A stretch of DNA of 64,000 nucleotides, taken from the NCBI RefSeq assembly GCF_015461805.1, contig NZ_JACVZE010000009.1, positions 62,001 to 126,000 of the forward strand, written 5' to 3'. The stretch comes from Pseudomonas pisciculturae. Lineage in GTDB: Bacteria > Pseudomonadota > Gammaproteobacteria > Pseudomonadales > Pseudomonadaceae. The notes under the pieces were generated by a model. The model saw only the letters and a program-made list of their open reading frames with translations. It did not search any database and was not told the origin of the DNA. The position numbers and the translations under genes are program-made. Shown in pieces: positions 7,605-58,844 of the stretch. How positions within the stretch are numbered: position 1 is the first letter of the stretch; every line of letters begins with the position of its first letter.

Positions 7605-7699
7605 AAATGTGGGAGGGGGCTTGCCCCCGATTGCGGTGTGTCAGTCTCAGTATCGTTCACTGAACCACCGCTATCGGGGGCAAGCCCCCTCCCACATTT
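7605..7699. repeat. REPIN, GGGGGCTTGCCCCC family
   Basis: Two inverted units, AAATGTGGGAGGGGGCTTGC and its mirror image ending CCCACATTT, joined by a divergent spacer of about 45 bases. It sits in the only gap between dxs and the BtuB-like gene, so any btuB promoter or leader must overlap it. Confidence 0.9.
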
Positions 7700-20701: not shown

Positions 20702-20795
20702 AAATGTGGGAGCGGGCTTGCCCGCGATGGCGGAGTGACAGTTACAAATTGTCTAACTGATACTCCGCCATCGGGGGCAAGCCCCCTCCCACATT
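20702..20795. repeat. REPIN, hybrid pair
   Basis: The left unit reads TGTGGGAGCGGGCTTGCCCGCGAT and the right unit is the mirror of the GGGGGCTTGCCCCC type. The two arms therefore differ at several stem positions, unlike the other copies. It lies between the GNAT gene and dedA. Confidence 0.85.
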
Positions 20796-25181: not shown

Positions 25182-25304
25182 AAATGTGGGAGGGGGCTTG
25201 CCCCCGATGGCAGTGTGTCAGGCAAATTTATTTCACTGAAACATAGCTATCGGGGGCAAGCCCCCTCCCACATTTTTAATTGCATTTCATATGTGGGAGG
25301 GGGG
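25182..25304. repeat. REPIN plus partial third REP unit
   Basis: A complete inverted pair (25182-25275) of the GGGGGCTTGCCCCC family, followed at 25290-25304 by a fragment, ATGTGGGAGGGGGGT, that stops after the first half of a unit. It lies between exaC and eat. Confidence 0.88.
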
Positions 25305-30417: not shown

Positions 30418-31043
30418 GCGGCCCGGAACGCGTCACCCTGGCGATGACCGGCGCATCGGGTGCGCCTTATGGCTTGCGCCTGCTGGACTGCCTGGTGCGC
30501 GAAGACCGCGAGGTGCACTTCCTGATCTCCAAGGCTGCGCAATTGGTGATGGCCACCGAGACCGATGTGGCGCTGCCGCCCAAGGTGCAGATGATGCAAG
30601 CCTTCCTCACCGAATACACCGGTGCGGCGGCGGGGCAGATCAAGGTCTACGGCAAAGAAGACTGGATGTCGCCCGTGGCCTCGGGCTCCGGGGCGCCTGC
30701 GGCAATGGTGGTGGTGCCGTGTTCCACCGGCACCTTGTCGGCGATTGCCACCGGTGCCTGCAACAACTTGATCGAGCGCGCAGCGGACGTGACCTTGAAG
30801 GAGCGTCGCCAGTTGATCCTGGTGCCGCGTGAGGCGCCCTATTCGAGTATTCACCTGGAGCACATGCTCAAGTTGTCGAACATGGGCGTGACGATTTTGC
30901 CGGCATCACCGGGCTTTTATCACCAGCCGCAAACCATCGATGACTTGGTGGACTTTGTGGTGGCGCGCATTCTAAACCTGCTCAATATCCCCCAAGACAT
31001 GCTGCCACGTTGGGGCGAACACCATTTGAGCAGCGATGAATAA
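30414..31043 (+). CDS. ubiX: Flavin prenyltransferase
   Basis: UbiX attaches a dimethylallyl group to FMN to make the prenylated cofactor of the decarboxylase UbiD in ubiquinone synthesis. The 209-residue protein (ATG overlapping the mpl stop) begins [20 protein letters not shown], the FMN-binding loop. Further conserved parts are [20 protein letters not shown] and [20 protein letters not shown], and [20 protein letters not shown] near the C-terminus. Prenyl phosphate is supplied by the isoprenoid pathway. Confidence 0.96.
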
Positions 31044-31320
31044 GGCGCTGATGATTCTGCTGGCGCTGCACCTGGCAGGCTGCGCCACCGCGCGCACGCT
31101 GGACGCGGCGCAACCCGGTGCGCCGGTGGTGTATGCCGGCACGCGGCTGGATCTGTATGCGATCAATGGCGGGTGTTGTGCCAAGGACCGGTTTGGTGCC
31201 GAGGCGCCGAGTTATCCCCATGTGGATCTACCGGCCAGTGCGTTGCTCGACACGCTGCTGTTGCCGCTGTCGGTGTTAACGGTGCTTGGGGTTGGCTTCA
31301 ACGCGACAGGCGGGTTGTAA
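31036..31320 (+). CDS. Small lipoprotein, YceK/YidQ family
   Basis: A 94-residue protein beginning [20 protein letters not shown]; the lipobox LAGC gives a lipid-modified cysteine at residue 15. The rest ([17 protein letters not shown]..., [21 protein letters not shown]) fits the DUF1375 family of E. coli YceK and YidQ. The function is unknown. The start overlaps the ubiX end by eight bases. Confidence 0.82.
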
Positions 31321-31346: not shown

Positions 31347-31442
31347 AAATGTGGGAGGGGGCTTGCCCCCGATAGCGGTGGGTCAGTCAACAAATCTGTT
31401 AACTGACACTCTGCCATCGGGGGCAAGCCCCCTCCCACATTT
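31347..31442. repeat. REPIN, GGGGGCTTGCCCCC family
   Basis: Inverted pair between the convergent ends of the YceK-like gene and the NAD(P)-binding gene. The left unit continues as GATAGCGGTGGGTCAG and the right arm ends CTCCCACATTT. Confidence 0.9.
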
Positions 31443-31469: not shown

Positions 31470-32111
31470 TTACTTGCCGAGCTTGCGCAACTCATCCGAC
31501 TCCACCACCCGCACCCCATCTTGCTCTTCCAGTGCCAGGCGCCACATGGCCCGGGCCAGTTCGCAGACTTCAATGCCGTGGTACTTGCCCGGAATCAGCC
31601 GCGACAACGGCCCGGCCAGTTGCTCGGCCAGGCGAGGCTCCAGTCGCTCGCCCAGCAGCAGTGACGGCCTGACGATGGTCAGTTGCGGCCAGCCTTGAGC
31701 CTTGAGCGCCTGCTCCATCTCCCCTTTGACGCGGTTGTAGAAAATCGAGGATTTCGGGTCGGCGCCAATCGCGCTGATGACCACCAGGTGCCGTGCGCCC
31801 ATCTCCCGTGCGCGCTGGGCGAAGGCCACGACCATGTCCAGGTCCACGGCGCGAAACGCCGCTTCCGAGCCGGCTTGTTTAATGGTGGTGCCCAGGCAGC
31901 AGAAGGCCAGGTCGACCTGGCCGCTCAGTTGCGGCAGGAACACCGCCGGGTCGCCCACCGGGTTTTCCAGGCGCGAGTGTTCGGCCAGAGGCTTGCGGCT
32001 GGGCGCCAGCACGCGGGTGACCGTGGGTTCGTTGAGCAAGCGGTCGAGCAGGTGTTCGCCGGTGAGGCCAGAGGCGCCGGCAAGCAGGATATGCTGAGGT
32101 GTCAGGTACAT
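31470..32111 (-). CDS. NAD(P)-binding Rossmann-fold oxidoreductase (atypical SDR/epimerase-like)
   Basis: A 213-residue protein with the dinucleotide-binding motif [20 protein letters not shown] at its start. [20 protein letters not shown] and [20 protein letters not shown] follow the pattern of the HTATIP2/YwnB-like atypical short-chain dehydrogenases, in which Y..VK is the catalytic pair (here YNRVKGEME). The substrate is not known. It stands 29 bases after the stop of the MORN-C13 gene on the same strand. Confidence 0.78.
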
Positions 32112-32140: not shown

Positions 32141-33859
32141 TTAGTTGCCTTTGGCTTCCTTGCTATTCATTGAGACGCTTTCGAGCGCCTTTCGTGCCTG
32201 CTGCTTGCGTAAAAGTTGCCAGTGGGCGATGACGCCCTTGGGGGCCCAGATCTGCGGCTCGGAAGCTTCGAAGTTGTCTGCCTGCTCGCGTTCGCTCACA
32301 TGCAGTTGCGCCAGTTTGAAGGCTTGTTGCAGGTCATCGGTCTGGTTGAAGGCTTGGGCGAAGAGGGCGTCGCCAAAGTAGGTAAAGTCGGCTTCCTCGG
32401 AACAACCGAAGGACACTCTGTCGGCACGGGAGGCCGTCATGATCAAGGTGCGTTCGTCTTTGAGCGCCGGGATAAAACCGCCGGAGTAACAGGCGGAAAT
32501 CACGATGACCTTGTCGCGGTTTTTCAGCGGCGCGAGCACGGCGGCCAGCTCATCGGCGGGCAAGTCGGCCAGCTCCATGCGCGGCTGGTCGAGCACCAGT
32601 TCGTGCTCATGGGTACCGTGGCTGGTCATGTAGATGAACACCAGGTCTTCGGGCCCGGTGCGTTCGGCCAGGGTCTGCACGGCGCGGCGCAGGCTTTCGC
32701 GGGTGGCCAGCGGGCGGTCGGCGATGTGGTCGCGGTGGTTGACCAGGCGGATCTGCCCGCGCGCGCCGAAGCGGGTGGCGAGCATGTTGCTGACGTAATC
32801 GGCTTCGCGCAGGAACACGCTTTGTTTACCATCGCCAGCCAGCACCAGCGTGTACAGCTCGACGGCGGAGGTGGAGGCGGGCACCGCGGCGAGTGCCGCA
32901 TCCAGCAGGTGGCCCTGGGCGAGTACGCCGATTTCCAGCGGGTCGGGCAGCAACTTGCCGTCGGCATCACGCACGCGCATGCCGTTGACCCAGGTGCCGG
33001 CCTGTACGGTGCCGTCGGTCAGCACCAGAGTGCCTCGGCCCTGATAGCTGTCGCTGTCGAAGCCGCCAATATAGAAGCTGCCATCGGTGAGGTTCAGGCG
33101 ACCTTCGCCGGTGAAGCGCCAGTCGCTGAACTGGCCGACATAGTGGCTGCCGTCCACGCCGATCAACTCGCCTTTACCGCTGAGGGCGCCTTCCTTGAAT
33201 TGGCCGATCCACACGTCGCCGTCGGCGTTTTCGTAGCGGCCCTTGCCGTTGAGCTGGTTCTGTTTGAACTGGCCGACATAGATATCGCCATCGGCGCTGT
33301 TGAAGTTGCCATTGCCCTCCAGTTGCCCGTCCACAAAGTGACCGCTGAACTGGTTGCCACTGTCGTCGTTGCGCTGGCCTTCGCCATTGGGTTTGCCGTG
33401 GGCGAACTGGCCCTGGTATTGACTGCCGTCGGCCAGTTCCAGGCGGCCGAGGCCGGAATACTGGTCGTTCTTGAACTCGCCGCGATAGGTCATTTGCCCC
33501 TCTTTGAGGGTGCCTTCGCCGTTGCGTCGACCGTTCTTGAAGCCGCCCACATAGTGGCTGCCCGCCGTGGTCAGGCTGCCCTGGCCGTCGAACAGGCCTT
33601 GCTGGAACCGGCCCTTATAGACTTCGCCATTGCTGCCATGCCATTCGCCCTGGCCGTGCCACTGGCCGTTGTCGAACTGGCCGGCGTACCAACTGCCGTT
33701 GGGGTAGTCCACACGGCCTTCGCCTTGTAGCAAGCCATTGACCACATCGCCCCGGTAGCGGCCGCCATCGGGCAGGCGCGCATCGGGCGGCAACAGCGAT
33801 TCGCCATCTCCGCAAGCGGTGAGCAACAGGGCAAGGGCAAGGGGGGCGAGTGGGCGCAT
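32141..33859 (-). CDS. Lipoprotein with about 11 MORN repeats and a C-terminal C13 (caspase-like) peptidase domain
   Basis: A 572-residue protein from the ATG at 33859. The signal MRPLAPLALALLLTAC gives a lipidated Cys16. Residues ~32-290 hold eleven MORN-type repeats of about 23 residues with the pattern G..Y.G.F..G...G.G, plus a degenerate twelfth. Residues ~330-545 resemble peptidase family C13: the histidine is in FIYMTSHGTHEHE (His414) and the cysteine in VIVISACYSGGFIP (Cys457), both after hydrophobic strands as in legumain and caspases. MORN repeats in other proteins bind membranes or lipids. The lipobox predicts a membrane-anchored periplasmic protease or transamidase-like enzyme. The substrate is unknown. 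Relatives occur at this locus in other pseudomonads. Confidence 0.85.
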   Translation of the reverse strand: MRPLAPLALALLLTACGDGESLLPPDARLPDGGRYRGDVVNGLLQGEGRVDYPNGSWYAGQFDNGQWHGQGEWHGSNGEVYKGRFQQGLFDGQGSLTTAGSHYVGGFKNGRRNGEGTLKEGQMTYRGEFKNDQYSGLGRLELADGSQYQGQFAHGKPNGEGQRNDDSGNQFSGHFVDGQLEGNGNFNSADGDIYVGQFKQNQLNGKGRYENADGDVWIGQFKEGALSGKGELIGVDGSHYVGQFSDWRFTGEGRLNLTDGSFYIGGFDSDSYQGRGTLVLTDGTVQAGTWVNGMRVRDADGKLLPDPLEIGVLAQGHLLDAALAAVPASTSAVELYTLVLAGDGKQSVFLREADYVSNMLATRFGARGQIRLVNHRDHIADRPLATRESLRRAVQTLAERTGPEDLVFIYMTSHGTHEHELVLDQPRMELADLPADELAAVLAPLKNRDKVIVISACYSGGFIPALKDERTLIMTASRADRVSFGCSEEADFTYFGDALFAQAFNQTDDLQQAFKLAQLHVSEREQADNFEASEPQIWAPKGVIAHWQLLRKQQARKALESVSMNSKEAKGN

Positions 33860-33964
33860 AGCGGGATCCGGGTAATTGAGCGCCGAGTATGCCGCAGCCG
33901 TGAGGTACATACATAAATTTACACAGCCTGTGGCGAGTTTTGATGCATCGCCACAGGGGCGGGC

Positions 33965-34420
33965 CTACACGAAGCAGAGTGACAGCGACTCGGCAATGTA
34001 GGCAGGTTTCTCCTGGCCTTCGATTTCCAGGGTGCATACGGCTTTGAGCAGCCATTGCCCAGGTTTTTTCTCGGTGGCGTCGGTGAGGCTGACGTGCAGG
34101 CGTACCTTGGAGTCGACTTTCACCGGTTGGATAAACCGTACGCTGTCCAGGCCGTAGTTGACCGCCATCTTCAAGCCTTCGGGCATGATCAGGATGTCTT
34201 CAATCAGCTTGGGGATCAGCGATAGCGACAGGAACCCATGGGCGATGGTGCCGCCAAACGGGGTTTGCGCGGCCTTGACCGGGTCGACGTGGATGAACTG
34301 ATAATCGCCAGTGGCTTCTGCGAACAGGTTGATGCGGTCCTGGTCGATGGTGAGCCATTCGGAACGTCCCAGTTCCTTGCCGACATAATCGTTGAGCTGC
34401 GCTACAGGTACATAGGGCAT
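33965..34420 (-). CDS. MaoC-family dehydratase/hydratase
   Basis: A 151-residue hot-dog-fold protein, from the ATG at 34420 (MPYVPVAQLNDYVGKELGRS) with AGGAGA upstream. The MaoC-like hydratase motif is FAEATGDYQFIHVDPVKAAQ, which carries the catalytic aspartate and histidine, followed by FGGTIAHGFLSLSLIPKL. It is probably an enoyl-CoA hydratase of (R)-specific type, though the substrate is unknown. It stands as a single gene, divergent from the lrgA-like gene. Confidence 0.88.
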   Translation of the reverse strand: MPYVPVAQLNDYVGKELGRSEWLTIDQDRINLFAEATGDYQFIHVDPVKAAQTPFGGTIAHGFLSLSLIPKLIEDILIMPEGLKMAVNYGLDSVRFIQPVKVDSKVRLHVSLTDATEKKPGQWLLKAVCTLEIEGQEKPAYIAESLSLCFV

Positions 34421-34544
34421 TGCGTCTCTCCTGGGTTCATCGGTTTTTATAAGTGTGCGAGATCCAATGTAGATCATCATGAGCAATGAGGCCGGTCAAG
34501 CCACCATGCTTTTGGCGAATGCCGGTGCATAGGGCGGGCATGCT

Positions 34545-34579: not shown

Positions 34580-34933
34580 ATGCTGTTACGTGGGCTGACA
34601 TGGCTGGTGCTGTTCCAATTGATCGGCACGGCGCTCAATCATTTGCTGTTGCCGATCTTGCCAGGGCCGATTATCGGGTTGCTGCTGATGCTCGGCTTTT
34701 TGATCTGGAACGGTGAAGTCGGCGAGCCCTTGAGCCTGGCAGCCAGCAGCCTGTTGCGATACTTACCGTTGCTGCTGGTGCCACCTGCCGTTGGGGTAAT
34801 GGTGTATGCCAAAGACATCTTGGCGGATTTCTGGGCCATCGTCGGCGCCTTGGTGTTGTCGCTGGTGATCGCCATGGGCTTTGTCGGCGTGCTGATGCAG
34901 CAGATGGTCAAGCGCAAGGAGAAGGATCAATGA
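34580..34933 (+). CDS. CidA/LrgA-family holin-like membrane protein
   Basis: A 117-residue protein with four predicted membrane segments, starting MLLRGLTWLVLFQLIGTALN. The family motif LLPILPGPIIGLLLMLGFLI is present at residues ~25-45, and SLLRYLPLLLVPPAVGVMVY follows. CidA/LrgA proteins are holin-like and work with LrgB/CidB, encoded by the next gene with a four-base overlap. They have been linked to murein hydrolase control and, more recently, to pyruvate or overflow metabolite transport. Confidence 0.9.
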   Translation: MLLRGLTWLVLFQLIGTALNHLLLPILPGPIIGLLLMLGFLIWNGEVGEPLSLAASSLLRYLPLLLVPPAVGVMVYAKDILADFWAIVGALVLSLVIAMGFVGVLMQQMVKRKEKDQ

Positions 34934-35646
34934 TCGTCGACTGGCACGGTGCGTGGACGGCGGTGATTCATCACCCCTTGTTCGGTATCGGCATCACCCT
35001 TGGCGCTTACCAGTTGGTACTCGCGGCGTTCGAGAAAACCCGCTGGATTTTCCTGCAGCCGGTGCTGGTTTCCATGTTGCTGGTGATCGGCATCTTGCTC
35101 ACCTGTGGCCTGAGTTACGCCGAATACCGCAAGAGCACCGAGATCATGGGCATCCTGCTGGGCCCGGCGACGGTCGCCCTGGCGGTGCCGCTTTATTTGA
35201 ACCTGCGGCGCATTCGCCAATTGTTCTGGCCGATTTTTACTACGCTGGTGGTAGGTGGCGTGTTGGCCACCGGCCTGTGTGTGCTGCTGGGCTGGTGGTT
35301 TGGTGCCGAGCACATGATGCTGATGACCATGGCGCCCAAGTCGGTGACGTCACCGATTGCCATGCTGGTGGCCGAGCAGATCGGCGGCGTGGCGGCATTG
35401 GCGGCGGTGTTTGTGCTGATTACCGGGGTCGTGGGGGCGATGCTCGGCCCGGCGATTTTATCCCGCTTGGGTGTGCACAGCCCCGAAGCACGGGGCATGG
35501 CGCTGGGCATGACGGCTCACGCCGTCGGCACCTCGGTGGCGTTGCAAGAGAGCGAAGAGTGCGGCGCCTTTGCGGCGCTGGCCATGAGTCTGATGGGCGT
35601 GGCCACGGCGGTGTTCCTGCCGTTGGCCGTGTCGGTGATCGTTTAA
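34930..35646 (+). CDS. CidB/LrgB-family membrane protein
   Basis: A 238-residue protein with multiple membrane helices that starts inside the stop of its partner (ATGA). LLGPATVALAVPLYLNLRRI and APKSVTSPIAMLVAEQIGGV are the family signatures, and LGMTAHAVGTSVALQESEEC lies near the C-terminus. It probably forms a complex with the LrgA-like protein. No lytR-type regulator lies nearby. Confidence 0.92.
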   Translation: MIVDWHGAWTAVIHHPLFGIGITLGAYQLVLAAFEKTRWIFLQPVLVSMLLVIGILLTCGLSYAEYRKSTEIMGILLGPATVALAVPLYLNLRRIRQLFWPIFTTLVVGGVLATGLCVLLGWWFGAEHMMLMTMAPKSVTSPIAMLVAEQIGGVAALAAVFVLITGVVGAMLGPAILSRLGVHSPEARGMALGMTAHAVGTSVALQESEECGAFAALAMSLMGVATAVFLPLAVSVIV

Positions 35647-37590: not shown

Positions 37591-37682
37591 AATGTGGGAG
37601 GGGGCTTGCCCCCGATAGCGGTGGGTCAGCCAAACATCCCTTCACTGGTACACCGCCATCGGGGGCAAGCCCCCTCCCACAT
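37591..37682. repeat. REPIN, GGGGGCTTGCCCCC family
   Basis: Inverted pair upstream of the DedA-PAP2 gene and downstream of mpg, both on the minus strand. The loop carries TCAGCCAAACATCCCTTCAC between the units. Confidence 0.9.
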
Positions 37683-49989: not shown

Positions 49990-50083
49990 AATGTGGGAGG
50001 GGGCTTGCCCCCGATAGCGGTGTGTCAGTCAGCAGATTTGGTGCTGATACACCGACATCGGGGGCAAGCCCCCTCCCACATTT
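49990..50083. repeat. REPIN, GGGGGCTTGCCCCC family
   Basis: Inverted pair 28 bases after lipA and 29 bases before ldcA, both on the plus strand, so it occupies nearly the whole gap. Confidence 0.9.
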
Positions 50084-58752: not shown

Positions 58753-58844
58753 AAATGTGGGAGGGGGCTTGCTCCCGATGGCGGGGTGTCAGTCAAAGAT
58801 GTATCACTGACACGCCCTCATCGGGAGCAAGCCCCCTCCCACAT
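58753..58844. repeat. REPIN, GGGGGCTTGC variant with CTCCCGAT
   Basis: Left unit TGTGGGAGGGGGCTTGCTCC and right unit its mirror GGGAGCAAGCCCCCTCCCAC. Both arms share the same change (GCTCCCGAT instead of GCCCCCGAT), keeping the pair complementary. It lies between the convergent ends of the YdcF-like gene and lnt. Confidence 0.88.

Follow-up and report, generated by a model that had tools for sequence, protein, structure and literature searches.

The closest described systems to the protein studied here are legumain (family C13, PF01650), the metacaspases and paracaspases (C14), the protozoan MORN1 proteins and the bacterial MORN-metacaspase fusions. The P1 pocket of legumain is built from Arg44 and His45 of helix alpha-1 together with Ser216 and Asp231; in TbMCA2 and MALT1, the residues of this pocket include acids of helix alpha-1, MALT1 binding arginine (PMC4357240). 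Glu190 of legumain was described as an activity brake (PMC9604545). TbMORN1 did not bind liposomes, bound PI(4,5)P2 in other assays and was co-purified with PE; MORN1 dimerises through its C-terminal repeats, and eukaryotic MORN repeats were proposed as protein-protein interaction modules (PMC7725318). Bacterial fusions in which MORN repeats precede a caspase-fold domain have been tabulated; these table entries carry a C14 domain, one to four MORN repeats and no membrane helix (PMC4933709).

Architecture, predicted membrane anchor and predicted fold of the MORN-C13 protein

The window, i.e. the whole stretch of 64,000 nucleotides from Pseudomonas pisciculturae that was analysed, encodes a MORN-C13 protein of 572 amino acids. 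Pfam analysis of this protein revealed a Peptidase_C13 domain (PF01650, E 2.2e-41, 142.6 bits with a cut-off of 22.8) and MORN repeats (PF02493, E 6.1e-31, 104.8 bits with a cut-off of 22.5). Genome-wide, C13 matches at E 0.001 occurred in this frame only, in two pieces, and both MORN matches at the same threshold were located inside it. A longer open reading frame would start at 33910; alignments of the homologues begin at the MRPLAP start instead. An origin by chance or artefact was rejected in view of the C13 E value and the conservation of the gene and of the gene order. The gene, its architecture and its His/Cys dyad are real and conserved. The coordinates of all features are collected in Table 1.

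Table 1. Features of the MORN-C13 gene and its surroundings, in positions of the window.
Feature	Position	Strand	Basis
MORN-C13 lipoprotein gene, 572 aa	32141..33859	-	ORF; Pfam MORN and Peptidase_C13; start shared with homologues
Predicted signal peptide and lipobox LTA-C, residues 1-16, Cys16 predicted to be lipidated	33812..33859	-	Sequence; lipobox pattern in 28/42 rows
MORN array, residues 34-297	32969..33760	-	Secondary structure of the model; Z about 20 to MORN1 structures (VIA-align)
Linker helix, residues 307-324	32888..32941	-	Model; alignment
C13 caspase-fold domain, residues 331-541	32237..32869	-	Pfam, model, fold matches, legumain alignment
Glu352 of helix alpha-1, candidate P1-pocket acid	32804..32806	-	Invariant in 42/42 and 39/39 rows; HMMER register, not confirmed by hhalign
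Predicted catalytic His414	32618..32620	-	Aligned with legumain His148; 110/110 rows
Predicted catalytic Cys457	32489..32491	-	Aligned with legumain Cys189; 110/110 rows
SFGC motif, residues 483-486, Ser483 equivalent to legumain Ser216	32402..32413	-	110/110 rows; legumain alignment
Epimerase-like gene (NAD(P)-binding) downstream, beginning 29 bp beyond the MORN-C13 stop	31470..32111	-	Adjoins in 80/80 Pseudomonas loci; named by reading the sequence
Upstream MaoC-like dehydratase gene	33965..34486	-	Adjoins in 79/80 Pseudomonas loci; named by reading the sequence
LrgA/LrgB-like pair	34580-35646	divergent from the MaoC, MORN-C13 and epimerase genes	79/80 Pseudomonas loci; named by reading the sequence

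The N-terminus carries a lipobox (L13-T14-A15-C16), by which the protein is a predicted lipoprotein. Among 42 homologous rows, 28 had a lipobox, 12 an N-terminal hydrophobic stretch and two neither (L029 and L032, perhaps owing to uncertain starts). An AlphaFold2 model built from the 42 aligned homologues (mean pLDDT 91.9, pTM 0.55) placed an N-terminal helix, the MORN hairpins, a linker helix and the C13 domain in this order; at this pTM, the model does not define how arm and head are placed relative to each other. The MORN part consisted of eleven complete hairpins (residues 34-279) and a partial one (residues 285-297), and a MORN HMM made from the repeats of the protein itself gave eleven matches, the MORN-bearing relatives having four to eleven. 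Thus, the predicted lipid-anchored array of eleven MORN repeats fused to a C13 caspase-fold domain was borne out by Pfam, the model and the fold matches, with a partial twelfth repeat added. The architecture is less unusual than originally claimed, since MORN-metacaspase fusions have been tabulated (PMC4933709) and the gene is found in 12 of the 13 listed genomes of the family.

Comparison of the model with solved structures by VIA-align showed that the modelled MORN half has the fold of protozoan MORN1 (6t4r, 6t4d, 6t69), the Plasmodium protein giving Z 20.3, rmsd 1.9 and 200 aligned residues (6t4d; E 1.2e-21 by sequence). However, MORN1 has no enzyme domain, and its C-terminal repeats, which form the dimer (PMC7725318), correspond to repeats that lead into the C13 domain here. 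The suggestion that the array presents a lipid surface is doubtful; it is weakened by the liposome result with TbMORN1, despite the findings on PI(4,5)P2 and PE (PMC7725318).

The C13 half matched metacaspase-4 (6w8r, Z 21.5, rmsd 2.5, 208 aligned residues) and legumain (7fqi, Z 21.2, rmsd 2.8, 206 aligned residues); as judged from the model, the two are equally close in fold (Z about 21, rmsd 2.5-2.9, about 205 residues). MORN1 and legumain structures were also among the Foldseek matches. By sequence, legumain was the best relative of the C13 profile among solved structures (E 3.7e-10). The MORN-C13 protein differs from the C14 enzymes in having no Pfam C14 match at E 0.001, where only C13 and MORN were found, and the domain alone matched only C13 at E 0.01. 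Nine of 39 related C13 domains matched C14 (best E 4.1e-9), and all 39 matched C13 at E 0.01. The catalytic chain of GPI transamidase also matched the model (8imx_K, Z 19.8). A sortase-like or GPI-transamidase-like transpeptidase, which would join another group to envelope proteins and not act as a protease, would fit this match as well as the membrane anchoring, and legumain itself is able to ligate (PMC9604545). Against it stand the marginal sequence match to GPI transamidase (E 0.039 with the C13 profile) and the absence of a recurrent partner gene beside the homologues outside Pseudomonas (see below), and we regard this alternative as very unlikely.

Predicted catalytic residues and P1 pocket

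The alignment with legumain, numbered by counting along the chain, paired His148 with His414, Cys189 with Cys457, Ser216 with Ser483, Cys219 with Cys486 and Asp231 with Asp497. His414, Cys457, Ser459-Gly460 and Ser483-Phe484-Gly485-Cys486 were identical in all 110 homologous rows (109 different sequences, mostly close relatives). The His-Gly/Ala-Cys dyad in a caspase fold that defines C13 members is present: its His and Cys occur in every row, and the structural match to legumain (Z about 21) agrees with it. The original prediction named His414 and Cys457 as the dyad and proposed its placement and the conservation of the cysteine as checks; the dyad aligns with that of legumain by sequence, and both residues held throughout.

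This conservation extends to more divergent relatives. In 42 rows thinned to less than 93% mutual identity (43 aligned rows minus L099), His414 and Cys457 were invariant, and all 24 invariant columns were located within the C13 domain, including V348, F349, E352, D405, H414, C457, S483 and C486. A broader set of 39 C13 domains, drawn from the order and from beyond it with other classes added, comprised 24 of the 41 relatives from the 42-row set and 14 of 17 phylum-level loci. F349, E352, D405, H414, G415, C457, G460, S483, G485, C486, T493, E525, S533 and P535 were invariant in all 39, one domain (L125) having SACYAG instead of SACYSG. Three loci are not in this set, namely L133, L141, which is partial, and L127, whose gene is that of L021; all three possess SHG, SACYSG and SFGC. 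In 24 family rows, 85 of 211 columns were invariant in the C13 half (mean entropy 0.53) and 84 of 264 in the MORN half (mean entropy 0.87). The MORN-C13 protein is probably an active enzyme.

The pocket residues of legumain are mostly not conserved. The position equivalent to Asp231 (497) is Asp in 87 of 110 rows, the window protein included, Arg in nine, Lys in five and another residue in nine, and the position of Glu190 is occupied by Tyr in 108 rows, as in the window protein, and by Phe in two. By helix register, we take Arg44 and His45 to fall on Phe349 and Leu350. Only Ser216 (Ser483) is thus conserved in the family, the window protein itself having two of the four pocket residues (Ser483 and Asp497). 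Because this pocket is mostly not conserved, the expectation that C13 enzymes cut after Asn or Asp does not carry over to this protein. A legumain-type asparaginyl/aspartyl endopeptidase of the envelope could still be argued from the rank of legumain as best sequence relative among solved structures, from Ser483 in 110/110 rows and from Asp497 in the window protein. It is unlikely given the reversed charge at position 497 in 14 of 110 rows, the Tyr or Phe at the Glu190 position in all 110 and the presumed Phe349 and Leu350 in place of Arg44 and His45.

A different candidate for the recognition of P1 is Glu352 in helix alpha-1. When a profile of the first 86 residues of the C13 domain was compared with the PDB by HMMER, the top two matches were chains of metacaspase-4 (E 0.002), with profile position 25 on metacaspase-4 residue 27. 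If this register is continued up the helix by two residues, Glu352 falls on the metacaspase alpha-1 Asp. That Asp was kept in all 18 bacterial C14 domains compared and aligns with an Asp of MALT1. On the other hand, in both extended hhalign alignments the C14 Asp fell on Tyr355, which is three residues away from Glu352, with confidence 0 at this point, and this counts against Glu352 as a pocket acid; the local hhalign alignment to C14 begins after helix alpha-1. The second pocket acid of TbMCA2, Asp211, which lies two positions before the Cys, presumably falls on Ser455, a further point against a basic P1. Glu352 may sit where metacaspases and MALT1 have their pocket acid. On the basis of the HMMER register and of the alpha-1 acids in the pockets of TbMCA2 and MALT1, P1 is predicted to be probably basic, or at least not Asn. 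The invariant Glu352 thus offers a prediction of specificity that hangs on one residue.

Gene neighbourhood and distribution

The gene order around the MORN-C13 gene was fixed across 80 named Pseudomonas loci. The short distance of 29 bp between its stop and the epimerase-like gene suggests cotranscription. A promoter scan gave no match. One terminator-like site (31353-31370) was found inside a repeat element. Such elements recur in the window: the near-palindrome GGGGGCTTGCCCCC (up to two mismatches) forms seven pairs in opposite orientation, 60-62 bp apart and resembling REP doublets, at 7615-7689, 20712-20786, 25192-25265, 31357-31432, 37600-37674, 49999-50073 and 58763-58836, with 25 matches on the two strands where 1.75 would be expected. 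Also near the epimerase-like gene, and convergent with it, lies a small lipoprotein-like ORF (31036-31320) that resembles YceK on reading and overlaps the end of a ubiX-like gene.

PA4016 of P. aeruginosa is presumed to be the orthologue of the MORN-C13 gene, and PA4015 and PA4017 are taken to be the MaoC and epimerase genes. Its flanks match the order found here, the orthology being inferred from gene order and not from a sequence comparison. PA4016 lies between PA4015 and PA4017 and was called most likely a single-gene transcription unit; a transposon insertion in an exoU-deleted strain attenuated the killing of worms, a second allele, in the wild type, did not, and the gene was dropped (PMC3406104). 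In an envelope proteome, PA4016 was detected at 0.19 and <0.05 of the control upon overproduction of two MFS pumps (PMC7835679). The insertions without a repeatable phenotype in this one assay (PMC3406104), together with the interaction role proposed for eukaryotic MORN repeats (PMC7725318), would be consistent with a MORN scaffold in which the C13 domain mainly serves binding or sensing and catalysis is rare or lost. However, His and Cys are kept in 110/110 rows, conservation in the 24 family rows is higher over the C13 half than over the MORN half, and MORN-free C13 domains keep the same invariants, which makes such a scaffold an unlikely explanation.

The search for co-occurring genes that had been proposed yielded no partner: none recurred in 20 loci of other families outside Pseudomonas, where more distant relatives could be missed. 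All ORFs of at least 90 aa in these loci (13.5-16 kb) and in the window were compared with one another at E 1e-12. Of the 14 largest clusters, the two largest consisted of the MORN-C13 gene and of frames that overlie it. A short frame, which is antisense within the homologue gene in L146, recurred in 4 of 21 loci, and the others of these 14 clusters came from three loci of one family (L142, L143 and L145). Moreover, comparison of the 13 neighbouring genes of the window with the 20 loci at E 1e-4 gave a single match, a regulator in L155.

The neighbouring LrgA/LrgB-like genes, alongside in 79/80 Pseudomonas loci, and the caspase fold could point to an envelope caspase of stress or cell death linked to this pair. 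This is highly improbable: the pair is divergent, neither gene was found in the 20 other-family loci at E 1e-4, and the PADLOC caspase entry matched the protein weakly (E 3.3e-6). A reading of the gene as part of a defence system was dropped on account of the same weak match. The EACC1-associated caspase model (NF047832, NCBIfam) gave 37.3 bits, below its cut-off of 140.

In a sample of 293 genomes of the order, 94 matched one half of the protein or both halves at E 1e-10. In the family of the window, G020 was the one listed genome without a match, the other 12 having the full-length protein, and the closest homologue records were from named Pseudomonas species (a P. viridiflava isolate, P. 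marginalis, P. grimontii and others). Of 349 genomes of Pseudomonadota, 53 had a PF01650 match at E 0.001, which in 50 of them lay above the cut-off. Among 17 C13 loci from outside the family, a simple pattern found MORN-like repeats in three and none in 14. The 39-domain tree set contains 24 domains on MORN-repeat proteins and 15 on others; on this tree the MORN label requires three changes, of which the well-supported branches force at least two. A single gain of MORN repeats with later losses is possible on this sequence tree.

Among the relatives in other Pseudomonadota, L129, L130, L132 and L134-L140 are MORN-free C13 proteins with a VF..E, SHG (or THG/GHG), SACYSG and SFGC-like pattern, and several C13 proteins without MORN repeats have an N-terminus that reads as signal-like. 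The genomes of another family (f28; L142, L143, L145, L153, L154) gave four to seven query matches each, several to MORN-only stretches elsewhere.

Proposed function and significance

Among the readings considered, the likeliest makes the MORN-C13 protein a cysteine peptidase of clan CD that is anchored in the envelope, docks through its MORN arm and has a P1 pocket that is not of the legumain type. The protein would be exported and lipidated at Cys16, probably at the outer membrane and facing the periplasm. The MORN arm may keep the caspase-fold head off the membrane and provide a surface for protein docking or dimerisation. By means of His414 and Cys457, the head would cleave a single protein substrate or a few, exported or of the envelope, after a P1 residue that is probably basic, read by Glu352, rather than Asn or Asp. 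Such an enzyme would serve housekeeping processing and not defence or virulence.

This full account, as a core Pseudomonas envelope peptidase with a basic P1, is tentative, and we rate its chance of being correct as somewhat short of even. The presence of the presumed orthologue PA4016 in the envelope proteome speaks for it (PMC7835679). We counted against it the pTM of 0.55, the retention of Ser483 and Asp497, the hhalign register, Ser455 at the place of Asp211, the lack of a clear anchor in L029 and L032, the discordant PA4016 alleles and the description of PA4016 as a single-gene unit, and the literature search found no bacterial member with shown activity. No study of a MORN-C13 protein appeared, by title, among the literature matches listed. 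The C13 family is known, and its anchored MORN form is conserved and apparently unstudied, as far as the literature search shows.

A wider proposal, which we consider speculative and improbable, is that exported caspase-fold enzymes are widespread and unrecognised in proteobacteria, marked by VF..E, SHG, SACYSG and SFGC, and act on envelope proteins by acyl transfer or by site-specific processing, the Pseudomonas copy standing on an outer-membrane MORN arm that sets its distance or its partners. PorU is a sortase of clan CD. If the proposal were true, this set would correspond, in the Gram-negative envelope, to GPI transamidase or to the PorU-type sortases.

If the MORN-C13 protein is active, nearly every genome of the Pseudomonas family sampled would encode an envelope protease for which no assigned substrate was found, and a caspase-fold enzyme would operate outside the cytoplasm of Gram-negative bacteria. 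Since related MORN-free domains occur in other Pseudomonadota, the identification of one substrate would help to annotate a large family.
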